A DNA stretch of 64,000 nt, from positions 192,356-256,355 of the forward strand of contig JAUQQC010000002.1 in NCBI GenBank assembly GCA_030550025.1. Reading direction: 5' to 3'. Positions 3,828 to 15,636 of this stretch are shown piece by piece. The position numbers and the translations under genes are program-made. The stretch is from Acidobacteriota bacterium. Lineage in GTDB: Bacteria > Acidobacteriota > Blastocatellia > HR10. Each line of letters opens with the position of its first letter. Position 1 is the stretch's first letter. Under the pieces are notes generated by a model, which was not told where the DNA came from, did not search any database, and worked only from the letters and a program-made list of their open reading frames with translations.

Positions 3828-5774
3828 ATGAGCAGGAGGTATCATGTCATTGTTCCGGACGCCGAGTTCTGGAAGCGGATGATCCCTTGTCAAGCGGCCT
3901 GTCCGGTGTCCACGGACGCGGGGAAGTATGTACAACTCATCGCCGAGGGGGAGTTCGAGAAGGCGTATTTGACAGCTCGCTCTCCGAACCCCTTTGCTTC
4001 TGTATGCGGACGGGTATGCGCGGCACCGTGTGAGGATCACTGTCGGCGCGGGCGGGTGGATGCGCCGGTGAGCATTCGGGCGTTGAAGCGATTCGTGTGT
4101 GAGCGCTATGGGGTGGAGTCGTTGCGGCCCGACACGCAGGATGCGCTCTTTGAGGGGGTGAGCGAGCCGGGGAACAAGACGCTCGGGCATCTCCCCATCA
4201 TGGCCTCCGGTCGGAGGGGAGTTGCGCGTGGGCAGAAGGTGGCTGTCATCGGGGCGGGGCCGGCTGGGCTCGCCTGCGCGCATGATCTGGCGCTCATGGG
4301 CTATCGCGTCACCATCTTCGAGGCCACCGAGCGACTCGGAGGCATGATGGTTCATGGCATTCCCGAGTTCCGTCTGGCGCGCTCGATCATCGAGAAGGAG
4401 ATCGAGAAGATCCTGCGTCTGGGCGTGGAGGTGCGGCTCAATACGCCGCTGACGCGGGAGTTCGGACTGCGGGAGTTACGAGCGCTCGGTTATGAGGCCA
4501 TCTTCTTGAGCGTGGGCGCGCAGCGGGGGCGCGATCTTGCGATCGAAGGGGCCGATTTGGATGGCATCATCAAGGCGATCGATTTCCTCATCAACGTGAA
4601 TCATGGATATCGCGTGAATCTGGGCAAACGCGTGGTCGTCATCGGCGGGGGGTTCGTCGCCTTCGATGCCGCGCGTTTGGCGCTGCGGGCGGCGCTCGTC
4701 ACCGAAGCGGAAATGGTGGCCGATGGAGCGGGAATGAAGACGGCGCTCGATGCTGCGCGCGCCGCGCTTCGAGCGGGCGTCGCCGACGTGCGGATAGTGA
4801 GCCTGGAGTCGTTCGAGGAGATGCCCGTCATGCGCACGACGCAAGGGCGCGAGGAGTTCGAGGAAGCGCAGCGCGAAGGGATCATCTTCCACCCGCAGCG
4901 AGGCGCGCGCCGATTCCTCGGAGAAGAAGGGCGCGTCCGAGCGATCGAATTGATCGGCGTCCTGCGCACCTATGATGAGGAAGGACGCTTCGCCCCTATT
5001 TATGATCCCAGCGTCCACGAGGTCTTGGAAGCGGATACGGTCATCCTCGCCATCGGACAGCAGGCCGATCTCTCCTTCCTGAAACCGGAAGACGGCCTCG
5101 AGCTGACTCCCCAGGGGACGATCAAGGTGGATCCACAGACATTGGCGACGACGGCGCCGGGCGTCTTCGCCGGAGGGGACGTGGCGTTCGGCCCGCGGAA
5201 CTTGATCGAAGCCGTGGCCAATGGAAAACGCGCGGCGCTCTCCATCGATGCGTACCTGAGGGGGGTGACGGCCGAGCCAGTCTTCCACCTCCTGGTCGAG
5301 CCGATCCCCACGCGGCGCTACCGCATGGTTCCCGGGTACGAGAAGATCGAGCGCCAGCCCCCACCCACGATCCCCTTGGACCGGCGCACGGGGATCTCCG
5401 AGGTCGAGATCGGATATACGGAAGTGGAAGCGCGACGACAGGCGCAGCGGTGCCTCTACTGTCACATCCAAACGATCTACGATCCGGAGAAATGCGTCCT
5501 GTGTAATCGGTGTGTGGACGTCTGTCCGGAGCACTGTCTGAAGCTCGTGCCGCTTGAGGAGATCGCGTGGGAGCCGGAGGCGCGCGCGCGTGTGCTCGCC
5601 CACTATGGGCTGGGGGGAGAGCCGATCGAATCTCTCTCGGTCATGCTGAAGGACGAGGACCGATGTATCCGCTGCGGATTGTGTGCGATTCGATGTCCGA
5701 CAGAAGCGATGACCATGGAGGTCTTCTCCTATGAAGAACGCGAAGTGGCACCGTCGGTCGGCCTCGCCGTCTGA
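3828..5774 (+). CDS. Fe-S/FAD pyridine-nucleotide oxidoreductase (GltD-like) heading the nos operon
   Basis: A 648-residue flavoprotein like the small subunit of glutamate synthase but with extra Fe-S domains. The N-terminal 95 residues carry the cysteine pattern of the GltD Fe-S domain (CQAACP, then VCGRVCAAPCEDHC). An FAD Rossmann motif VIGAGPAG lies near residue 139, a second dinucleotide motif VVIGGG near 269, and the FAGGD motif near 448. The C-terminus has a ferredoxin-like segment with CVLCNRCVDVCPEHC near 555 and CIRCGLCAIRCP near 612. No GltB is adjacent. It overlaps the Rieske gene by 44 bases and precedes cytochrome b, so it probably feeds electrons from NAD(P)H or a ferredoxin into the membrane module. 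That role is inferred from context. Confidence 0.8.
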   Translation: MSRRYHVIVPDAEFWKRMIPCQAACPVSTDAGKYVQLIAEGEFEKAYLTARSPNPFASVCGRVCAAPCEDHCRRGRVDAPVSIRALKRFVCERYGVESLRPDTQDALFEGVSEPGNKTLGHLPIMASGRRGVARGQKVAVIGAGPAGLACAHDLALMGYRVTIFEATERLGGMMVHGIPEFRLARSIIEKEIEKILRLGVEVRLNTPLTREFGLRELRALGYEAIFLSVGAQRGRDLAIEGADLDGIIKAIDFLINVNHGYRVNLGKRVVVIGGGFVAFDAARLALRAALVTEAEMVADGAGMKTALDAARAALRAGVADVRIVSLESFEEMPVMRTTQGREEFEEAQREGIIFHPQRGARRFLGEEGRVRAIELIGVLRTYDEEGRFAPIYDPSVHEVLEADTVILAIGQQADLSFLKPEDGLELTPQGTIKVDPQTLATTAPGVFAGGDVAFGPRNLIEAVANGKRAALSIDAYLRGVTAEPVFHLLVEPIPTRRYRMVPGYEKIERQPPPTIPLDRRTGISEVEIGYTEVEARRQAQRCLYCHIQTIYDPEKCVLCNRCVDVCPEHCLKLVPLEEIAWEPEARARVLAHYGLGGEPIESLSVMLKDEDRCIRCGLCAIRCPTEAMTMEVFSYEEREVAPSVGLAV

Positions 5775-6315
5775 GCTTCCGAATCCCGGCGTTCCCGACG
5801 TCGAAACGGGATCGGGGTCTTCGGCCTCGCGGCGCCTTTTCCTCCAACGTGTGGGGCTCGGGGCGCTGTTGGCCGGGCTCTTCGGCCATGTCTCTGCGTG
5901 GGTGCGCTCGCTCTTCCCCAATGTCCTGTACGAGGAGCCGCGGCGCATTAAGATCGGGCGTCCGGAGGATTTCGCAGAGGGGGGGACCTTCTTGGAGGAA
6001 CGGCGGCTCTTCGTCTTCCGCGAGCGGAACACGTTCTACGCCATCTCAGCGACATGCACCCATCTGGGATGCACGGTGAAGATGATCCTGCTCCCTCAAC
6101 CCAAGCGCGTTCGGATCGGCGAGCAGACGAAAGAAGAACGGTACGAATTTCACTGTCCGTGCCATGGCTCGAAGTATTATGGCGATGGGACGAACTACGC
6201 GGGACCGGCGCCTCGTCCGCTCGTCTGGTACAAGTTGGAGGTCGCTCCTGAGGACGGGCAGTTGGTGGTGAACCTGGAGGAGACCGTCGGCCAGGACTTT
6301 CGACTGACGGTGTGA
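5731..6315 (+). CDS. Rieske 2Fe-2S protein (cytochrome bc-type complex)
   Basis: A 194-residue Rieske iron-sulfur protein. Both cluster-binding boxes are intact: CTHLGC near residue 108 and CPCHGS near residue 141, giving the two Cys and two His ligands. The N-terminus has a twin-arginine-like motif (SRRLFLQR near residue 33) followed by a hydrophobic segment, as expected for a Tat-exported, membrane-anchored Rieske protein facing the periplasm. It should take electrons from quinol at the cytochrome b subunit encoded next and pass them to the multihaem cytochrome c. The start overlaps the flavoprotein gene by 44 bases, which implies coupled translation. Confidence 0.88.
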
Positions 6316-6328
6316 ACGGAGGGATCCT

Positions 6329-7645
6329 ATGGCCGCTGAGCGAACGATCTGGGAGCGGATGTTCTGGAGCTGGAGGCCGGAAAGCTCGCGCGAAGCCGGT
6401 GATGCCATCGTGCGGAACTTCCTTCTGCACTGGTTCCCGGCGAAGGTCTTGCGCGAGAGCCTTAGCTTCCGCTACTCGCTCTGGTTGGGGACGATCGCCG
6501 CCGTGCTCTTCTTCCTCCTCACGGGAACGGGCGTGGTCCTCATGTTCCTCTATGTGCCTTCGGTTGAGCGCGCGTATGCATCGGTCAAGGATATCGAGCA
6601 TGTGATTTCGTTCGGCTGGTTCGTGCGGAGTCTGCATCGGATCGCCGCGCACGCGATGGTGGCGATCGTCTTCCTGCACATGGTGCGCGTATTCGTCACT
6701 GGCGCGTATAAGAATGGCGTGGCCGCCGATCAGAATCGTCCGCTCAACTGGATCATCGGGATTCTTCTGCTTCTGGCGACGCTCTTGCTCTCGTTCACCG
6801 GATACTTGTTGCCATGGGATCAGTTGGCCTATTGGGCGATCACGGTGGGCACGAGCATTGCGACGGCGGCACCCTGGATCGGAGACGACATTCGCTTCCT
6901 GCTGCTTGGGGGGCACGAGATCGCGCAGAACGCGCTCTTGCGGTTTTACGTGCTCCATTGCTTCGTCCTGCCGGCGGCCGTGCTCATCCTCTTCTCCTGG
7001 CATATGTGGCGCGTGAGGAAGGACGGGGGGTTGGCATGCGCCGATCGGCTGGCGCGCGAGCAGAAACGCGAATGGGCGGCGCCGATCCGCAGCAAAACCT
7101 ATTCGCTTCTGGGGATCGCACGCGGCCGAACGATCCATGTCGAGACGGCGGTGATTGACGAAGAGGAGCACACGGTTCCGGCCTCGCCGGTTCTCGTGCG
7201 CCGCCTGTTTTTGGTAGTGCTCGGCACGCTCGTCGCGACGTCGCTTCTGGCGCTGGTGATTCGCGCCCCGCTTGAGGAGCCGGCCAATCCGAGCGTGACG
7301 CCGAATCCGGCCAAAGCGCCATGGTATTTCCTCTGGTTGCAAGAGCTGGTCGCGCTGACGACCGTGCGGATCAGCTCGTACACGCTCAACGGGGCGTTCG
7401 TGGGAGGGGTGCTGATCCCCGGGCTCTTGATCCTTTGGCTGGCCATTTGGCCCTATCTGGATAAGAGTTCGGTCGCTTCGGTGGGCGTCTGGTTCCCCAC
7501 CGAACGGCGGCGACAGAATCTCGTTTTCCTCCTCATCGCGGCGGGGATCCTCCTGCTCATCCTCACGGGGACGTTCATGCGTGGCCCGTATTGGGAGTTC
7601 TACTGGCCGTGGGAACCATGGCCGGAGATTCCGCGCCGGTTCTAG
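6329..7645 (+). CDS. Cytochrome b (b6 plus subunit IV-like fusion)
   Basis: A 438-residue, strongly hydrophobic protein of the cytochrome b/b6 family with about eight membrane helices. The haem-ligand pattern is visible: two His in the helix near residues 109-123 ([15 protein letters not shown]) and two in the later helix near 208-223 (VLHCFVLP to FSWHMW). The C-terminal half contains [14 protein letters not shown], the equivalent of the PEWY quinol-site region of subunit IV. It should form the quinol-oxidising core of a bc complex with the flanking Rieske and cytochrome c proteins. A GGAGGG site precedes the ATG. Its place in the nos operon points to quinol as the electron source for N2O reduction. 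Confidence 0.88.
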
Positions 7646-7687
7646 TCTCCGTGCGGTGGGGAGACGAAGGCGGAGGAGAACAGCTCG

Positions 7688-8875
7688 ATGGACCAACGGC
7701 GTGATGTGACGTGGATTTCCTCATTGGGCTTCGTCCTTTTCCTCCTGATGGGCGTGGCGTATTGGAGAGAGTGGCGTCCGGAATGGAAGGCCTATCAGGC
7801 GGAGTTTCGGGAGTTAGTCGTTCGGCGCTTTGGTCCGGATCGCGCAGCCCATGTCCCGAAGGGCGTGCAGCAGATTTGGATCCCGCAGTTGGGGCGCGTG
7901 GATCGGTGTGTGACCTGCCACTTGGGGATCGAGTGGAAGGGGCTTGAGAACGCTCCCCATCCGTATCGCACGCATCCGCCGGAGATCTTGCAGAAGCATC
8001 CGATCACTCGTTTCGGTTGCACGATCTGTCATGGTGGGCAGGGATATGCGACCGATATGCGTTCGGCCCATGCGACGCGGATTGAGCATTGGGAGGAGCC
8101 GCTTCTGGCGGCGGAGTTGGGGAAGACCTATCTCCTCAGCGAGAGGAAGGCGTTGCTGCAGATCAACTGTAACATTTGCCATCGGTACGATCGGGAGACG
8201 AAGGGGGCTGAGCTCATCAATTATGCCAAGCGATTGGTGAGGGAGAAGGGGTGTCGCGCTTGCCATAAGATCAACGGACGCGGGGGGGTGATCGGTCCCG
8301 ACCTGACCTACGTCGGGGACAAGTCGCCGGAGCAGTACGACTACGCGCGGCTCGGTGGCGTGAAGTCGGTCTTCGCCTGGCACATCGCGCACTTCAAGAA
8401 TCCCAAGGCGATGGTGGCCGAGACCGTCATGCCCAATTTCAACTTCGGGAGTCGCGAGGCGCAAGCCTTGGCGATGCTGGTGATGAGCTGGAAGCGCGTG
8501 ACCCTCCCGGTCGAATACCTTCCGGGCGCGCAGTGGGCCGATCGGCCGACGCCGGAAGAGTTGGAGCGCGAGCAGCGCATGCTCACGGGCGAAGGGGCTT
8601 TCTTCGTCAAGAAGGGGTGCTTCGTTTGCCACGAGGTCAGTTCGCTCGGCATCGAATCGGCGGCGAAGATTGGCCCCGATTTGGCGAACGCCTACGTGGA
8701 TGTGCAGAGTCGCTTCGGCAAGACGTTGGAGGATTTCCTCATGAATCCGACGGGGACGATGGCCGTCGTGCTCGCGACGCAGATTCCGCTGACGGCGGAG
8801 GAGAAGCGCGAGGCGATTGAGACGCTCAAACTCGCCTATCGGCGGAAGCTCGAGCGCGAGACCGGTCTGAGGTGA
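7688..8875 (+). CDS. Membrane-anchored five-haem cytochrome c
   Basis: A 395-residue protein with one N-terminal membrane segment (WISSLGFVLFLLMGVAYW) and five CxxCH haem attachment motifs: CVTCH near residue 75, CTICH near 111, CNICH near 161, CRACH near 189 and CFVCH near 311. The last two lie in mono-haem cytochrome c-like domains, while the first three are closely spaced. It most likely receives electrons from the Rieske/cytochrome b module and passes them to NosZ in the periplasm. A GGAGGAG site lies before the ATG. The partners are inferred from operon order. Confidence 0.85.
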   Translation: MDQRRDVTWISSLGFVLFLLMGVAYWREWRPEWKAYQAEFRELVVRRFGPDRAAHVPKGVQQIWIPQLGRVDRCVTCHLGIEWKGLENAPHPYRTHPPEILQKHPITRFGCTICHGGQGYATDMRSAHATRIEHWEEPLLAAELGKTYLLSERKALLQINCNICHRYDRETKGAELINYAKRLVREKGCRACHKINGRGGVIGPDLTYVGDKSPEQYDYARLGGVKSVFAWHIAHFKNPKAMVAETVMPNFNFGSREAQALAMLVMSWKRVTLPVEYLPGAQWADRPTPEELEREQRMLTGEGAFFVKKGCFVCHEVSSLGIESAAKIGPDLANAYVDVQSRFGKTLEDFLMNPTGTMAVVLATQIPLTAEEKREAIETLKLAYRRKLERETGLR

Positions 8876-8939
8876 ACCTTTGTGTTCCTCCCCGCGCGCG
8901 GTCCATAGGCGTGGGGAGGTCAGAAAGGAGGGGGCCAAG

Positions 8940-10796
8940 ATGAGAACGAAAATCGCCTTACCCTGGGTGATCGTAAGCCTCGTCGTCGCAGTCGCCGTGA
9001 CGGCCCTTGTGTTCTCCATGCGAGGGCGCGGGCCGAGGGTAGAGCGCGGCGAAGTCGCCGAGGCCGCCGTGGCGACTTATGTGGCTCCGGGGGACTTGGA
9101 CGAGTACTACCTCTTCTACTCCGGCGGCCATTCGGGAAACGTGTTCGTCGCGGGCGTCCCCTCGATGCGCCATATCGCGACGATCCCGGTCTTCACCCCC
9201 TATCCCTCGACGGGCTATGGGTTCGACAAGGAGTCCCGAGAGATGCTCGGCGAATATACGTGGGGGGATGTGCACCATCCGGCCTTGAGCGAAACCAACG
9301 GCGATTACGATGGGCGGTGGCTCTTCGTCAACGACAATGCTAACAATCGCGTCGCGCGGATCGACCTGCGCGATTTCAAGGTGAAGCAGATCTTGGGACC
9401 GATCCCGAACATCTCCGGCTATCACGGGGGATCGTTCGTCACCCCGAACACCGAATACATCCTGGCGGCTTCGCGGTTCTCCGTTCCGCTGCCTAAGGGG
9501 ACGTATGCGCCCGTCGAGGAGTATGCCACGCGATATAAGGGAGTCGTCTCCGGCATCGCCGTGGATCCGAAGACGGGCGAGATGAGCGTGGGCTGGCAGG
9601 TCCTGATGCCGCCGTTCAACTTCGATCTGGGGGACGCCGGCAAGGGGCCGAGCCATGGCTGGGCTTTCTGGACCTCCTACAATACGGAGCGGGCGATCGG
9701 AAAGTTGGAGGTCACCTCCACGCAACGAGAGCGCGACTACATCGCGGCGGTGAATTGGCGGGCGGCCGAGCAAGCGATCCGAGATGGGAAGTTCACGGTG
9801 ATCGGTGGCGTGAAGGTCATTGATCCGAAGACCGTCCCGGGCGTCGTCTATCTCATCCCCTGCTCGAAGAGTCCGCACGGTGTGGACGTGAGTCCAGATG
9901 GCCGGTATATCGTCGCCAGCGGGAAGCTCGCCTCGATCACGACCGTCTTCAACATCGAGAAGATCCTGACCGCGATTCAGAACAAGAACTTCACGGGCGA
10001 GGAGGATGGCATCCCCGTCCTCAATTATGATGCCGTCAAAGATGCGGAAGTGAATGTGGGGTTGGGGCCGCTGCATACAGTCTTCGATGATCGAGGATAC
10101 GCCTACACGAGCCTCTTCGTCGAGAGCGCCGTCGCCAAATGGAAGCTCGGCACCTGGGAGGTCGTGGACAAGATCCCCGTCTCTTACAACATCGGCCATC
10201 TGGCCGCCGCCGAGGGCGATACGGTCAGTCCAGATGGGAAGTATCTGGTGGCGCTCAACAAGCTCTCGCACGGGCGACACTTGGGTGTCGGCCCCTCGCA
10301 GCCGGAAAGCTCGCAGCTCATCGATATCTCCGGCGAGAAGATGAGGCTCCTCTACGACGCCTTCACCGAGCCCGAGCCGCATTACGCGCAGATGATCAAG
10401 GCCGACAAGCTCAAGCCGATCGAAGTCTATCCAAAGGAGGAGAACAAGCATCCGCACGCGATCTGGGACGTCAAGGATGCGAAGATCGAGCGGCGCGGCA
10501 ACGAGGTGGTCGTTAAGATGCTCGCCGTGCGCAGCAGTTTCGAGCCCTGGAAGATCGAAGTGAACCAGGGGGACAAGGTCGTCATCCATCTGACGAACAT
10601 CGAGCAGACGACCGATGAGCTGCATGGTTTCGCCATCGGCGAGTACAACATCAACGTGGTGGTGGACCCGGGCGAGACGAAGACGATCGAATTCGTCGCA
10701 CACAAGCCCGGCGTCTTCCCCTACTACTGCACGAACTTCTGTTCGGCCTTGCATCAGGAGATGCAGGGCTATTTGCTCGTGAAACCGAGATCCTGA
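8940..10796 (+). CDS. nosZ: Nitrous-oxide reductase, clade II (Sec-type)
   Basis: A 618-residue periplasmic copper enzyme that reduces N2O to N2. The seven-bladed propeller domain shows the family DVHHP motif near residue 110 and LFVNDNANNRVARI near 130. The C-terminal cupredoxin domain holds the CuA site CTNFCSALHQEM near residues 596-607, with both Cys, His and Met ligands present. The N-terminus is a plain Sec signal/anchor (KIALPWVIVSLVVAV) with no twin-arginine motif, the hallmark of clade II (atypical) NosZ. I chose the ATG at 8940 because AAAGGAGGGGGCC directly precedes it; in-frame codons upstream to 8880 encode nothing family-like. It sits between the electron-transfer genes and the maturation genes. 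Confidence 0.95.
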   Translation: MRTKIALPWVIVSLVVAVAVTALVFSMRGRGPRVERGEVAEAAVATYVAPGDLDEYYLFYSGGHSGNVFVAGVPSMRHIATIPVFTPYPSTGYGFDKESREMLGEYTWGDVHHPALSETNGDYDGRWLFVNDNANNRVARIDLRDFKVKQILGPIPNISGYHGGSFVTPNTEYILAASRFSVPLPKGTYAPVEEYATRYKGVVSGIAVDPKTGEMSVGWQVLMPPFNFDLGDAGKGPSHGWAFWTSYNTERAIGKLEVTSTQRERDYIAAVNWRAAEQAIRDGKFTVIGGVKVIDPKTVPGVVYLIPCSKSPHGVDVSPDGRYIVASGKLASITTVFNIEKILTAIQNKNFTGEEDGIPVLNYDAVKDAEVNVGLGPLHTVFDDRGYAYTSLFVESAVAKWKLGTWEVVDKIPVSYNIGHLAAAEGDTVSPDGKYLVALNKLSHGRHLGVGPSQPESSQLIDISGEKMRLLYDAFTEPEPHYAQMIKADKLKPIEVYPKEENKHPHAIWDVKDAKIERRGNEVVVKMLAVRSSFEPWKIEVNQGDKVVIHLTNIEQTTDELHGFAIGEYNINVVVDPGETKTIEFVAHKPGVFPYYCTNFCSALHQEMQGYLLVKPRS

Positions 10797-10802
10797 ATCC
10801 TC

Positions 10803-10839
10803 CGGAGGGGGAGCTATTCCCCCCTCCGTCCAGGGGGGA
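10803..10839 (+). promoter_or_regulatory. Two mutually exclusive G/C hairpins covering a ribosome binding site
   Basis: CGGAGGGGG (10803-10811) pairs perfectly with CCCCCTCCG (10820-10828). The same C-run (TCCCCCC, 10818-10824) can instead pair with GGGGGGA (10833-10839), which is the ribosome binding site of the gene starting at 10843. Only one hairpin can form at a time, the arrangement of a translational switch. It might also simply tune expression or stabilise the nosZ 3' end. Confidence 0.5.
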
Positions 10840-10842
10840 GGT

Positions 10843-11391
10843 ATGCAGGAGAAGGGCTTGAAAGGGAAACGGATCCTCATGGTCATTGCGCCGGAAGATT
10901 TCCGGGATGAAGAGCTGTTCACGCCGAAGGGCCTTTTCGAGGCCGAGGGGGCGGAGGTGAAGATCGCCTCGACGCGGCTCGGTCCGGCGCGCGGGATGCT
11001 CGGCGGGAGCGCTTCGCCCGATCTGCTCATCGCCGACGCGCGCGCGGACGATTATGACGCGATCGTCGTCGTCGGGGGGATGGGATCCCCAACGTACTTG
11101 TGGTCGAACGAAACGTTGCATCGGCTGCTGCGAGAGGCGGAGGAGAAGGGGAAGATCATCGGAGCCATCTGCCTCTCGCCAGCGGTGCTGGCGCGCGCCG
11201 GCCTCTTGCGTGGCCGACGGGCGACCGTGTACGCGACGGAGGAGTCCCTGCGCGAGTTGCGACAAGGCGGCGCGCACTATCAAAGCGTGGACGTCGTCAC
11301 CGATGGACGCCTCATCACGGCCAGCGGACCGCAGGCGGCCGCCGAATTCGGGCGCGCCATCTGCGCGCAGCTCGCCGCTCGCTCGGGTTGA
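10843..11391 (+). CDS. DJ-1/PfpI family protein within the nos operon
   Basis: A 182-residue DJ-1/PfpI-fold protein. It shows the early acidic loop PEDFRDEEL near residue 17, the VVVGGMGS strand and the nucleophile elbow GAICLSPAVLA with Cys near residue 109. The residue after the Cys is Leu instead of the His of PfpI proteases, so peptidase activity is doubtful; a glyoxalase, chaperone or redox role is possible. It lies between nosZ and the NosB-like gene, same strand, 46 bases after nosZ, and its ribosome binding site is part of a possible hairpin switch. A role in protecting or maturing NosZ is speculation from position. Confidence 0.78.
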   Translation: MQEKGLKGKRILMVIAPEDFRDEELFTPKGLFEAEGAEVKIASTRLGPARGMLGGSASPDLLIADARADDYDAIVVVGGMGSPTYLWSNETLHRLLREAEEKGKIIGAICLSPAVLARAGLLRGRRATVYATEESLRELRQGGAHYQSVDVVTDGRLITASGPQAAAEFGRAICAQLAARSG

Positions 11392-11421
11392 TGGCGCCCG
11401 CGCGAATATGGATGGAACGAG

Positions 11422-12075
11422 ATGGAACGCTTTTTGGAAACGGCGAATCGTTTCTTCGACCTCCCGCTCGGAGTACGGAGCCGGCTCGTCCTTCTTGTGG
11501 CCGCGCTCGTGCTCATCCCGACATATCTCTTCCCCCTCTGGCAGATGACGCTCTATTCCAACCAATTCCCCGACGGCCTGCGGCTCTATATCTACTCGCA
11601 CAAGCTGGAAGGGGCGCGGTCGCCGAGACGGGATGATCTCCGAGAGATCAATACGCTGAATCACTACATCGGCATGCGCCCGCTTCTGGAGAGCGATTTC
11701 AGCGAATTCAAGTGGATCCCTCTGATGGTCGGCATCTTCTTCATCCTCGCGCTGCGCGCGATCGTGATCGGCAAGATGTCGAATCTCGTGGATACGACCG
11801 TGCTCTTCATGTATTTTGGCCTCTTCTCGTTCTGGAGCTTCTATCGCCGATTGTACGAGTACGGGCACAACTTGGACCCAACGGCGCCGGTGAAGGTTCC
11901 GCCTTTCATGCCACCGCTTTTCGGTTCTCAACAGATCGCGAATTTTCGCGTTCACAGTTATCCGGGAGCGGCGTCGTTCTTCATGGTGGGCTTCTTCCTC
12001 CTCTCGCTGGTGGCGATCTGGCTCGCGACCAAGGAGCGACGGTTCAGGGAGATCAGCCCTGGGGCGATCGGTTGA
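11422..12075 (+). CDS. NosB-like four-helix membrane protein
   Basis: A 217-residue protein with four predicted membrane helices (about residues 20-40, 98-117, 122-144 and 183-203). The first loop, outside the membrane, contains LFPLW, the region DGLRLYIYSHKLEG and the segment INTLNHYIGM, which match the conserved features of the NosB-type proteins found in clade II nos clusters. The exact job of these proteins is not established; they are thought to support electron transfer or NosZ assembly. It lies 30 bases after the DJ-1/PfpI gene and 16 bases before nosD. The family assignment comes from recalled pattern and context, not a search. Confidence 0.65.
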   Translation: MERFLETANRFFDLPLGVRSRLVLLVAALVLIPTYLFPLWQMTLYSNQFPDGLRLYIYSHKLEGARSPRRDDLREINTLNHYIGMRPLLESDFSEFKWIPLMVGIFFILALRAIVIGKMSNLVDTTVLFMYFGLFSFWSFYRRLYEYGHNLDPTAPVKVPPFMPPLFGSQQIANFRVHSYPGAASFFMVGFFLLSLVAIWLATKERRFREISPGAIG

Positions 12076-12091
12076 GGGGATCACAAGGGAT

Positions 12092-13507
12092 ATGCCGGGA
12101 GGCCCGATCTCGCGTACACGGCGGACGGGGGGGGATCGTAGGGCGCTTCGACGATGCGCGTGGGGGGGAGTTGTGCTCCTGGTGGGAATAGGGGGGAGCG
12201 CTGAGGCGAAGACACTTGTTGTGAAGCCGCAGGGCCCGCTGGCCTCCGTCCGCGAGGCGATCCGCCAAGCCGATCCCGGAGATACGATCCGCATCGAAGC
12301 CGGCGTGTATGTGGGCAATCTCCGGCTGGAGAAGCCGCTCGCTCTCGAAGGCGTGGGCAAACCGATCATCCGCGGCGAAGGGAGCGGGAGCGTGATCACC
12401 GTGTTGGCGGATGGATGCGCCATTCGCGGCTTGGTCATCGAGCGGAGCGGTCGGGTGCTCGTCGAGGAGGATTCTGGAATCTTGGTGAAGTCGAGCCGAA
12501 ATCGGATCGAGGAGAACGAGATCCGCGACGTCCTCTATGGGATCTATCTCTATGCCGCCCATGACAACCTCATTCGCGGGAATCGCCTTCGCGGTCGCGT
12601 CGAGTTGGAGTTCGGGGAGAGAGGCAACGGCATCCACATTTGGAATTCGCGCGGCAATCGGATCATTGCCAACGCGATCTCGCACATGCGCGACGGGCTG
12701 TATCTGCAGAACGCCTCCGGAAGCCTGATTCGCGAGAATCGCGTCTTCCAGGTGCGCTACGGCCTCCACTACATGTTCTCGGACGATAACACCATCGAGG
12801 GGAATCGGTTCTTCGACAACGTGGCCGGAGCGGCCATCATGTATTCGCGGCGCATTCGACTGCGGCGGAACATCTTCTTCCGAAATCGCGGCTTCAGCTC
12901 CTACGGCCTCCTCTTTCAAGATTGCGACGATTGCGTCATCGAAGGGAATCTCATCGCCGATAATGCCGTGGGGATCTTCATGGAAGCGCTCCGCCGAAGC
13001 GTCTTTCGGCGAAACCTCATCGCGACCAACGACGTGGCCGTGTATCTCTTCAGCAGCGCGAGCGAGAACATCTTCACGGAGAACAGCTTCGTTCGGAACC
13101 TGAGCCTGTTGCGGGTGATCGGCCGGGGGACGACGACGCGATGGAGCTGGCAAGGGGTGGGGAATTATTGGGACGACTACGAGGGGTTCGACGCGGATGG
13201 CGATGGGATCGGCGACGTGCCGTTTCGCCTTCAGGACCTCTTCGAGCGCTTGGAGGGGAATCATCCGCGCCTGCGGGTATATCTGTCGAGCGCGGCCGCC
13301 GAAGCGTTGGCGTTCGCCGAGAGGGCCTTCCCGATCATCCCTGGGCCGCAAGAATGGGATCCGGCCCCGCTTCGGAAGCCGCGCGCTTTGTGGCCATCGG
13401 AGGCGCTGGAGATCGAGCGCGTTCCATCGTCCCGATGGACGTTCTTGGTCCCGATGATGATGGTCGGCATCTCCGTGGGCCTCTTCCTCTGGGTGAGGAA
13501 GCGATGA
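12092..13507 (+). CDS. nosD: NosD, periplasmic copper-site maturation protein
   Basis: A 471-residue right-handed beta-helix protein. From about residue 95 to 370 it is a run of CASH-type repeats built on the pattern N-x-(I/L/F)-x-x-N (for example GNRLRG, ANAISH, GNRFFD, RNLIAT). The signal peptide is marked by a hydrophobic stretch (GGVVLLVGIGGSAEA), and a C-terminal membrane segment ends the protein (MMMVGISVGLFLW). NosD acts in the periplasm with the NosFY transporter to build the CuZ centre of NosZ, apparently by supplying sulfur. The start codon has little ribosome-binding sequence. Its stop overlaps the nosF start as ATGA. Confidence 0.92.
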   Translation: MPGGPISRTRRTGGDRRALRRCAWGGVVLLVGIGGSAEAKTLVVKPQGPLASVREAIRQADPGDTIRIEAGVYVGNLRLEKPLALEGVGKPIIRGEGSGSVITVLADGCAIRGLVIERSGRVLVEEDSGILVKSSRNRIEENEIRDVLYGIYLYAAHDNLIRGNRLRGRVELEFGERGNGIHIWNSRGNRIIANAISHMRDGLYLQNASGSLIRENRVFQVRYGLHYMFSDDNTIEGNRFFDNVAGAAIMYSRRIRLRRNIFFRNRGFSSYGLLFQDCDDCVIEGNLIADNAVGIFMEALRRSVFRRNLIATNDVAVYLFSSASENIFTENSFVRNLSLLRVIGRGTTTRWSWQGVGNYWDDYEGFDADGDGIGDVPFRLQDLFERLEGNHPRLRVYLSSAAAEALAFAERAFPIIPGPQEWDPAPLRKPRALWPSEALEIERVPSSRWTFLVPMMMVGISVGLFLWVRKR

Positions 13508-14484
13508 TCGAGGTCGAGCATGTGGTGAAGGTGTTCGATGGCGTGCGCGCTGTGGACGACGTCTCTTTTCGCGTGTGCGCGGGCGAGACGTTCGCCCTCC
13601 TTGGTCCGAATGGGAGTGGGAAGACGACGCTCTTGAAGTGCCTGATGGGACTTCTGAAACCGAACGCGGGGCGCATTCGCGTTCGTGGGATCGAAGTGGG
13701 AAGCGATCCGCGCGCGGCCCTGTCGTGGATGAGCTACCTGCCGCAACGCGTCGTCTTTCCCGACGGGCTCACGGTGCGCGAGGTGCTCACGTTCTATGCG
13801 CGATTGCGCGGGGAGCGATCCGAGCGCATCGAGCGCGTGTGTCATCAGCTTCGGCTCGATCTTGGAGACCTCTCGGGTCGGTCCATCGGTGCGCTCTCCA
13901 GTGGCTTGCTGCAGCGGGTGGGGCTGGCGGTGGCTTTGCTCGCCGAGGTCCCGGTCCTCGTCCTCGATGAGCCCACGGTCAGTCTCGATCCCGAGGGGGT
14001 TCAACAACTTCGCTCCATCCTCGCCGAGTTGAGAGGGGAGGGGCGGACGATCCTCTTCTCCTCGCACGTGCTCTCGGACGTCGAAGTCCTCGCCGATCGC
14101 GTCGCCGTCCTCGTCCAAGGGAAGCTGGTCGCCCTCGAATCGGTCGAGGGGTTGCGCGATCAGTGGCGACAGAACGCGCTCACTCGCGTGCACTTGTGGA
14201 ATCCGAGCGAGCGGTTCGTCGAACTCGCCCATCGCCATGGAGCGAGCGAGGCGCGACTTCTTGGTTCCTCTCTCCTCTTCCGATCGAAAGCATCGGATCG
14301 CCTGGCGATCTTGCGCGCTCTGGAGGCAGGGGGAGCGCGGATCGAAACGTTCTGGACGCCGGAGCCGTCGCTGGAGGAGGTCTACTGGAACCATGTGGGC
14401 AAGGGGTCTGCTGGGGGTACTTTTGATCGCGGGGATCGCGTGTCGGAGCCCGCGACCGCAGCCGGTCGAACTACATCCGAGTGA
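13504..14484 (+). CDS. nosF: NosF, ABC transporter ATP-binding protein for CuZ maturation
   Basis: A 326-residue ABC ATPase. The Walker A motif GPNGSGKT lies near residue 34, the LSSGLLQRV signature near 137, and the Walker B VLVLDEPT near 156. With NosY (permease) and NosD it forms the exporter needed for CuZ assembly in NosZ. The ATG at 13504 overlaps the nosD stop by four bases, giving translational coupling; no upstream in-frame codons look like part of the protein. The frame continues for about 30 codons beyond the nosL start, so the C-terminal tail overlaps the coding sequence for the NosL signal peptide, which is unusual. Confidence 0.93.
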   Translation: MIEVEHVVKVFDGVRAVDDVSFRVCAGETFALLGPNGSGKTTLLKCLMGLLKPNAGRIRVRGIEVGSDPRAALSWMSYLPQRVVFPDGLTVREVLTFYARLRGERSERIERVCHQLRLDLGDLSGRSIGALSSGLLQRVGLAVALLAEVPVLVLDEPTVSLDPEGVQQLRSILAELRGEGRTILFSSHVLSDVEVLADRVAVLVQGKLVALESVEGLRDQWRQNALTRVHLWNPSERFVELAHRHGASEARLLGSSLLFRSKASDRLAILRALEAGGARIETFWTPEPSLEEVYWNHVGKGSAGGTFDRGDRVSEPATAAGRTTSE

Positions 14485-14824
14485 CGTCTGCTCGTTCTGC
14501 AAGATGGCGATCTCGGAGAAGCCGTACGCGGCCGAGCTGATCGATCGCGAGGGACGGGTCTTCCCATTCGATGACCTCGGGTGCTTGGTGCGCTTCGCCC
14601 GCGAGCGCGGTTTGCGAGAGCGGGCGACCTTCTTCGTCCTCGACTATGAGACGCTTCGATGGATCGAGGCCGAGCGCGCGATTTATGTCCAAGCGGGCTC
14701 CATTCCGAGCCCCATGCGGCACGGGATCATCGCCGTGAGCGATCGTCCTCGAGCCGAAGCCCTCGCCGATCGCTTCCGCGGTCGGATCGGATCATTCGCC
14801 GACATCTGGACATGGGTCCCATAG
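14393..14824 (+). CDS. nosL: NosL, copper chaperone-like protein
   Basis: A 143-residue NosL family protein, thought to bind Cu(I) outside the cytoplasm and deliver it to NosZ. After a short hydrophobic leader (LLGVLLIAGIAC) comes DVCSFCKM, a variant of the family's CxxCxM copper motif, then the conserved FDDLGCLVRF segment. The leader Cys near residue 17 may be lipid-modified, though the -3 position is Gly, so the lipobox is imperfect. The start lies inside nosF (92-base overlap) and is preceded by GGAGGAGG. The 3' end overlaps nosY by 13 bases. Confidence 0.88.
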   Translation: MWARGLLGVLLIAGIACRSPRPQPVELHPSDVCSFCKMAISEKPYAAELIDREGRVFPFDDLGCLVRFARERGLRERATFFVLDYETLRWIEAERAIYVQAGSIPSPMRHGIIAVSDRPRAEALADRFRGRIGSFADIWTWVP

Positions 14825-15636
14825 CCACGCTCGCCCTCTTCGAGCTGAAGGTTCACGTTCGGAACCGATGGGTGCTCGTGTTCGCCTTCGTCTTCGGCTT
14901 CACGGCGGTGGCAATCGCCGCCTTCGGTTTAGCGACGGCGGGAGTCGCAGGCTTTCAGGGGTTCGCGCGCACGACGGCGAGTTTGCTCAATCTCGCGCTC
15001 TATGTGATCCCGCTCGTCTCCCTGATGATGGGCACGATGAGCTTCGCCGGGGAGAAGAATGCCGGGGAGCTGCTCTTCGTGCAGCCGATCGCCCGCGAAA
15101 GCCTCGTTTGGGGGAAGTTGCTTGGCCTCATGCTTTCGATCGCCATCGCCACGGGATTCGGTTTCGGGCTGGCGGGGATGATCATCGCCGCCCGCGTGGG
15201 ATCGGCCGGGGTGACGCGGTACATGCTCTTTGTCGGGCATGTGTTACTGCTGGCCCTGGCCTTTCTCGCGCTCGGCATACTGGTGGCCATTGCTGGAGGG
15301 AGAAAGCCCCGGGCCTTCGGATACGCCCTCTTCCTCTGGTTCTTCTTCGTGCTCTTCTACGATCTGCTGGTGATCGGGCTGACGTTCCTCGTGCCCGAAC
15401 CGATAGCGAATCGGATGGTCTTCCTCTCCCTCTTTGGGAATCCGGTGGATTTGGTGCGCGTCTCCGGCTTCATGACGTTGGATAACCCGACGATCTTCGG
15501 CGCGGCGGGCGTGATGCTCGTGAGATTCTTCGGCGGAGAGGGGCGTGCGCACGCGATCCTCATGACGGGGACGATGCTCTGGGGGATCCTCCCGGCTTGG
15601 TTGGCCCAATGGCTCCTTCGGCGTCAGGACATTTGA
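14812..15636 (+). CDS. nosY: NosY, ABC transporter permease for CuZ maturation
   Basis: A 274-residue integral membrane protein with six to seven hydrophobic helices. The cytoplasmic signature EKNAGELLFVQPIARESLVWGK (read from residue 82) and the short SGFMTLDNPTIFG loop match the NosY/ABC-2 permease family. It pairs with NosF to move a sulfur-containing factor needed for the NosZ CuZ cluster. The ATG at 14812 overlaps the end of nosL by 13 bases. It is the last gene of the nos run; the neighbouring mnmA gene is convergent, 28 bases away. Confidence 0.9.
   Translation: MGPIATLALFELKVHVRNRWVLVFAFVFGFTAVAIAAFGLATAGVAGFQGFARTTASLLNLALYVIPLVSLMMGTMSFAGEKNAGELLFVQPIARESLVWGKLLGLMLSIAIATGFGFGLAGMIIAARVGSAGVTRYMLFVGHVLLLALAFLALGILVAIAGGRKPRAFGYALFLWFFFVLFYDLLVIGLTFLVPEPIANRMVFLSLFGNPVDLVRVSGFMTLDNPTIFGAAGVMLVRFFGGEGRAHAILMTGTMLWGILPAWLAQWLLRRQDI

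Follow-up and report, generated by a model that had tools for sequence, protein, structure and literature searches.

The anammox bacterium Kuenenia possesses Rieske/cytochrome b complexes that incorporate an oxidoreductase for nicotinamide adenine dinucleotide or its phosphate, NAD(P), and it has been proposed that these complexes form NAD(P)H by splitting the two electrons of menaquinol (PMC12954380). In the published model, a haem that had not been expected sits where the two cytochrome b chains meet; His43 of the cytochrome b Kuste4571 holds it, together with Arg247 and with a flavoprotein residue, Arg511 of Kuste4570 (PMC12954380). Here we describe a unit of four genes, located directly upstream of nosZ, the gene for nitrous oxide (N2O) reductase, in a member of the Acidobacteriota, that encodes the same four kinds of subunit as are found together in single clusters in Kuenenia (Kuste4569-4574 and Kustd1480-1485). 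Its membership, as a nos-dedicated branch, of the family of anammox-type Rieske/cytochrome b-NAD(P) oxidoreductase complexes is well supported. The unit lies within a stretch of 64,000 nucleotides (contig JAUQQC010000002.1 of assembly GCA_030550025.1, positions 192,356 to 256,355 of the forward strand), referred to below as the window.

Other described systems concern the supply of electrons to NosZ itself. NosR in clade I and the NosG/C1/C2/H proteins of Wolinella likewise act on the quinol side but are built on a different scaffold. In clade II nos clusters, the same kinds of gene as those described here adjoin nosZ, accompanied by nosB, nosD, nosF, nosL and nosY, and published gene maps already show cytochromes of the b and c types there, together with a Rieske and an iron-sulphur (Fe-S) protein (PMC11096178 Fig. 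5; PMC13122619 Fig. 2). These comparisons give the genes no more than the labels Fe-S protein, Rieske, cy-b and cy-c, and do not suggest that they form a bifurcating complex linked to NAD. Nor did we find any earlier proposal of a bifurcating or NAD-linked Rieske/b complex linked to nosZ, a provisional result from literature searches that did not take in most subscription papers.

The four genes upstream of nosZ

The flavoprotein, Rieske, cytochrome b and cytochrome c genes follow one another up to nosZ (Table 1), with an overlap of 44 bases at the first junction and gaps of 13, 42 and 64 bases at the others. An earlier note on this DNA had described this arrangement, which is reproduced to the base from open reading frames and domain matches. 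NosZ scores 925 bits against the model for Sec-type clade II enzymes (TIGR04246; cut-off 625), and the cluster bears the further marks of clade II, having no nosR and, after nosZ, a nosB assigned by position, which is where clade II clusters place it (PMC11096178). The absence of nosR from the window, also remarked upon in the note, extends to the genome as a whole (3.17 Mb, 98.7% complete): a profile search found no match to the FMN_bind domain of NosR and NosX (PF04205), and hence no recognisable NosR or NosX. The unit does stand where NosR would be, as the note put it, but this is less special than the phrase implies, as nosR is commonly absent from clade II nos clusters.

The flavoprotein possesses Fer4_20 and Pyr_redox_2 domains followed by two C-terminal 4Fe-4S segments (Fer4), giving a layout of N-terminal 4Fe-4S domain, Rossmann folds for flavin adenine dinucleotide (FAD) and NAD(H), and a C-terminal 2x[4Fe-4S] region. 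The chain has 16 conserved cysteines, a number that suits four [4Fe-4S] clusters and agrees with what was modelled for Kuenenia (PMC12954380), so that in its clusters and its FAD the protein is like its anammox counterparts. An AlphaFold model (pLDDT, predicted local distance difference test, 87) matches NfnABC, StnABC, Nfn, GltD and DPD, the closest being the subunits of the bifurcating NfnABC and StnABC enzymes. NfnAB/NfnABC and StnABC share the flavoprotein fold and the N-terminal cluster domain but are soluble and have other partners, and their RCLxC cysteine pair is at the N-terminal end rather than, as here, the C-terminal end. Cys542 and Cys545 of the RCLYC motif align to the N-terminal cysteine pair of the Nfn large subunits, and on the strength of this alignment the C-terminal end of the chain probably supplies the missing ligands of the first cluster.

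As a general rule for Rossmann folds, an acidic residue just past the second strand points to NAD(H) rather than NADP(H). At this position in the nucleotide domain the nos-type proteins carry Ser-Leu-Glu, whereas Nfn and the anammox proteins carry Tyr-Arg-Arg; the glutamate (Glu327) suggests NAD(H) as the nucleotide, and the flavoprotein is predicted to form a cytoplasmic NAD+ reductase arm. Residues 276-316 look as if the second Rossmann helix had been doubled (DAARLALR ... DAARAALR), with a linker of low confidence between the copies; nos-type flavoproteins and many of their relatives share this feature, which those of the anammox Kuste4570 type lack.

The closest solved relatives of the Rieske protein are the two from Kuenenia (PDB 9rk4, 8e-22, and 9rk3, 6e-18, with the next match at 5e-12), and it is 47% identical to Kuste4569. 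The twin arginine of its leader is invariant across 27 nos-type rows, and the cluster motif, CPCHGSKY, retains the potential-raising Ser147 and Tyr149. Cytochrome b keeps all four b-haem histidines and resembles the anammox complexes in the motif of its quinol-oxidising (Qo) site (PAKAPWYF, with AKAPWYF common to the window and the anammox complexes) and in the residues proposed to hold the new haem. As the Kuenenia genome was not among the loci of our wider survey (see below), Brocadia and other anammox relatives served as stand-ins; their numbering agrees with His43 and Arg247 of Kuste4571 in all four rows checked and with Arg511 of Kuste4570 in two of the four, being a few residues off in the others. 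In these relatives the new-haem residues fall on the motifs NxWLH, WRVRK and CILCGR, and the same alignment columns in the window hold His34 (equivalent to His43), Arg230 (Arg247) and Arg561 (Arg511). The first column is histidine in every cytochrome b row except that of the host's housekeeping bc complex, and the second is arginine in 25 of 27 nos-type rows. The third, in the flavoprotein, is arginine in 26/26 nos-type and 6/6 anammox-type rows and in 0/39 others, which have glycine, alanine or leucine.

In several respects the window's unit is unlike the anammox complexes. Its cytochrome b is fused, the flavoprotein gene comes first, the cytochrome c has five haems, and the presumed partner of the unit is NosZ rather than an octahaem protein resembling hydroxylamine oxidoreductase (HAO). 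Five CxxCH motifs are present in the window's cytochrome c and in every full-length nos-linked homologue; the structural model of this protein is poor (pLDDT 55) and supports no fold assignment.

Conservation and linkage to nosZ

Thirty-two of 297 Acidobacteriota genomes encode NosZ (matches of 1e-100 or better). Among 30 of these NosZ loci, the order flavoprotein, Rieske, cytochrome b, five-haem cytochrome c, nosZ recurs in 13 besides the window's, and one further locus is cut off inside the cytochrome c gene; nosB, nosD, nosF, nosL and nosY come after, where the contig reaches them and the match is strong enough. Conserved order was among the lines of support that the earlier note had named, and its view of an electron-supply module gains backing here, as a conserved unit dedicated to nos in which a flavoprotein of NAD(H)-linked appearance is joined to a Rieske/cytochrome b module. 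The nos-type flavoprotein (at least 57% identity) is encoded by 15 of the 297 genomes, all 15 of which also encode a clade II NosZ, and in 14 it lies directly upstream of nosZ in the same order. In the fifteenth (G153) the flavoprotein and cytochrome b genes are on a separate contig and nosZ is at the end of its own. The co-occurrence gives a Fisher p of ~9e-17, a value that overstates independence because the genomes are related.

For each of the four proteins, pairwise distances across loci track those of NosZ (Spearman 0.79 to 0.93, a level that no permutation out of 500 attained), most closely for cytochrome c (rho 0.93), with the flavoprotein at 0.87. The distances of NosD and NosB likewise track NosZ (0.81), and shared descent therefore accounts for part of the signal. 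Taken together, these results make the dedication of the unit to NosZ well supported. The broader idea that every NosZ of the lineage requires the module was dropped: two genomes (G125 and G014) encode a close NosZ (67%) with no relative of the cytochrome b at 1e-20.

A scan of GTDB genomes with an alignment led by the Kuenenia Rieske proteins yielded 80 loci, most of them with clustered flavoprotein, Rieske and cytochrome b genes and often a multihaem cytochrome c, from the Planctomycetota, Acidobacteriota, Verrucomicrobiota, Chloroflexota, Actinomycetota, Omnitrophota and KSB1. In the anammox loci the Rieske, flavoprotein, cytochrome b and cytochrome c are encoded together. nosZ comes after the cluster in 11 of the 80, namely those whose flavoprotein is at least 55% identical to the window's; loci with more distant flavoproteins have no full nosZ within the stretch examined. 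A tree of 70 flavoproteins unites the nos-linked proteins in a single clade (support 100/99) that takes in Anaeromyxobacter sp. PSR-1 (Myxococcota), a KSB1 and a Bacteroidetes metagenome-assembled genome (MAG). The company that the window keeps in this tree points to the Acidobacteriota as its phylum. The only row of the nos-linked clade without nosZ, L111, is from a contig that ends inside the cytochrome c gene, before the expected position of nosZ.

Two side observations come from this survey. Loci L090, L115, L116, L131, L134, L135 and L125, among many other non-nos loci from other phyla, have clustered flavoprotein, Rieske and cytochrome b genes and no nosZ in the stretch examined. A MAG named Acidimicrobiia and a genome placed in the Acidobacteriota (L136 and L051) have an identical nos flavoprotein and contigs of equal length, and the deposited name of the MAG is probably wrong.

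Proposed mechanism and alternatives

We see an even chance that the products of the four genes are a menaquinol:NosZ oxidoreductase, a dedicated member of the anammox-type family that bifurcates towards NAD+. Menaquinol would give up its electrons at the cytochrome b Qo site, the first passing via the Rieske cluster and the five-haem cytochrome c to NosZ and N2O. The second would cross the membrane via the b haems to an extra haem, held where the pair of cytochrome b monomers meets the flavoprotein, and from there run through four [4Fe-4S] clusters and FAD to NAD+; two menaquinols would thus give one NADH and one N2O reduced. We infer that the four products act as a single complex and donate electrons to NosZ, with NAD(H) as the nucleotide and NAD+ as the destination of the second electron, a direction drawn from sequence and energetics only. 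The genome encodes MqnC, indicating a menaquinone route (ubiquinone genes were not searched for). The midpoint potentials of menaquinol, NAD and N2O/N2 are ~-70 mV, ~-320 mV and ~+1.36 V, respectively. Those of the Kuenenia Rieske proteins are ~+300 mV (PMC12954380). By these values the climb to NAD costs ~250 mV, less than the ~370 mV gained in the drop to the Rieske cluster, and N2O makes the whole strongly exergonic. The more general proposal, that N2O serves as the high-potential driver of a quinone-bifurcating, NADH-making complex and that N2O respiration directly yields reducing power, is offered tentatively, at somewhat below an even chance.

Several points weigh against bifurcation towards NAD+. 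The cysteine that covalently holds haem cN in the anammox proteins, before Leu/Met-Gly-Gly, is replaced, by Trp52 in the window and by tryptophan or tyrosine in all 27 nos-type rows, and the n-side therefore differs from that of the anammox complexes. Of 51 other family rows, 47 likewise lack the cysteine, which marks cN as a feature of the anammox branch rather than of the family as a whole. Two nos-type rows have histidine in place of Arg230. Glu327 stands where Nfn and GltD proteins carry an arginine pair, the flavoprotein has a 25-residue low-confidence insert (residues 292-316) and NAD(H) binding is only predicted. With its loss of cN, its insert and its two histidine rows, the nos-type unit is a variant of the anammox complexes and not a copy. 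NAD(P)H formation is only proposed even in anammox bacteria, and a heterotroph that possesses complex I would have little evident reason to make NADH by a further route.

Of the alternatives, we consider it unlikely that an ordinary proton-pumping Q-cycle complex of the bc type feeds NosZ, with the flavoprotein peripheral, regulatory or otherwise partnered. The four b-haem histidines and the complete Rieske protein would suit such a complex, and in Wolinella clade II N2O respiration reportedly depends on a plain Rieske/cytochrome bc complex (Hein 2017, as cited in PMC11102522). Yet no nos-type locus whose contig extends far enough lacks the flavoprotein, the distances of which follow those of NosZ as noted above, and Arg561, at the proposed junction of cytochrome b and flavoprotein, is kept only in nos-type and anammox-type rows.

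It is rather improbable that electrons run the other way, from NADH (or ferredoxin) through the flavoprotein to the b haems or quinone and then via the Rieske protein and cytochrome c to NosZ, making the unit an NADH:N2O oxidoreductase. This was the direction favoured by the earlier note, with NAD(P)H or reduced ferredoxin as donor, and it has the same anatomy, steps that are reversible in principle, an NAD(P)H-linked flavoprotein fold and the acidic Glu327, suggestive of NAD(H), in its favour. NADH electrons could, however, reach the Rieske cluster only via quinol at the Qo site, and complex I, the NuoF subunit of which is encoded in the genome, would conserve energy that is wasted here; NAD(P)H-to-quinone flow has been judged unlikely on the same grounds in Kuenenia, where an energy-conserving NADH dehydrogenase exists (PMC12954380). 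We favour it less because the unit belongs to complexes for which the published proposal is quinol in and NAD(P)H out (PMC12954380). Flavin bifurcation in the manner of Nfn, with NADH passing one electron to ferredoxin and the other via the b haems to quinone or NosZ, is very unlikely: the closest folds are indeed the large subunits of NfnABC and StnABC, but within the operon, to which the search was confined, there is no partner subunit carrying the second flavin that in Nfn serves NAD(H) and ferredoxin, and the anammox relatives are interpreted in the opposite direction.

Neighbouring genes and other complexes in the genome

Table 1 Genes of the nos cluster in the window (positions from the first base of the window)
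Feature	Position	Strand	Basis and remarks
Nfn/GltD-like FAD protein, 648 amino acids	3828..5774	+	Pfam/NCBIfam domains, fold model, 16 conserved Cys
Tat-exported Rieske [2Fe-2S] protein	5731..6315	+	Rieske domain; nearest solved relatives Kuste4569 (9rk4) and Kustd1480 (9rk3)
Fused cytochrome b (b6 + subunit IV)	6329..7645	+	Cytochrome b N- and C-parts on a single chain; Qo motif APWY
Membrane-anchored five-haem cytochrome c	7688..8875	+	Cytochrome c domain, CxxCH count; proposed relay from Rieske to NosZ
nosZ, Sec-type clade II N2O reductase	8940..10796	+	TIGR04246; start ATG 8940 read from sequence
DJ-1/PfpI family protein, between nosZ and nosB	10843..11391	+	Pfam
nosB-like transmembrane protein	11422..12075	+	Assigned by position, without Pfam match; same place in homologous loci
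nosD	12092..13507	+	Pfam and NCBIfam
nosF, ATP-binding cassette (ABC) ATPase	13504..14484	+	Pfam; start read from sequence
nosL	14393..14824	+	PF05573; start by eye
nosY-like ABC permease	14812..15636	+	Position and conserved order, without NCBIfam match; start by eye

The DJ-1/PfpI gene has no match at the same place in homologous nos loci. No FNR box was found before the operon, the sole near match being inside the cytochrome gene and at chance level, and promoter and terminator scans gave nothing exceeding chance.

The genome encodes two further complexes of this general kind. The first, on contig C26 (L012, G000:C26:43000-58000; 6099-11776), comprises Rieske, b6 and subunit IV proteins with a 1062 amino acid multihaem cytochrome c. 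It has the anammox-like histidine, arginine and Qo motif (SKAPWYF) and a Rieske protein resembling Kustd1480; no flavoprotein was seen adjoining, and the neighbouring genes look like ctaA and ctaB. The second, on contig C22 (L011, G000:C22:40000-54000; 6137-9021), is a more canonical bc complex with a PEWY motif and a multihaem c, in whose Rieske protein (CACHNGQY) glycine replaces the potential-raising serine.

Implications

If bifurcation towards NAD+ is correct, the nos-type complex would stand out in a widespread family as the form whose terminal acceptor is identified, and a single conserved unit would serve a lineage that spans the Acidobacteriota, Myxococcota and others, giving a role to the flavoprotein encoded before nosZ. 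Bifurcation from quinol to NAD(P)H would become testable in culturable Anaeromyxobacter and not just in anammox enrichments, and growth-yield predictions for non-denitrifying N2O reducers would change: some soil N2O consumers would gain reducing power, besides energy, from a greenhouse gas.

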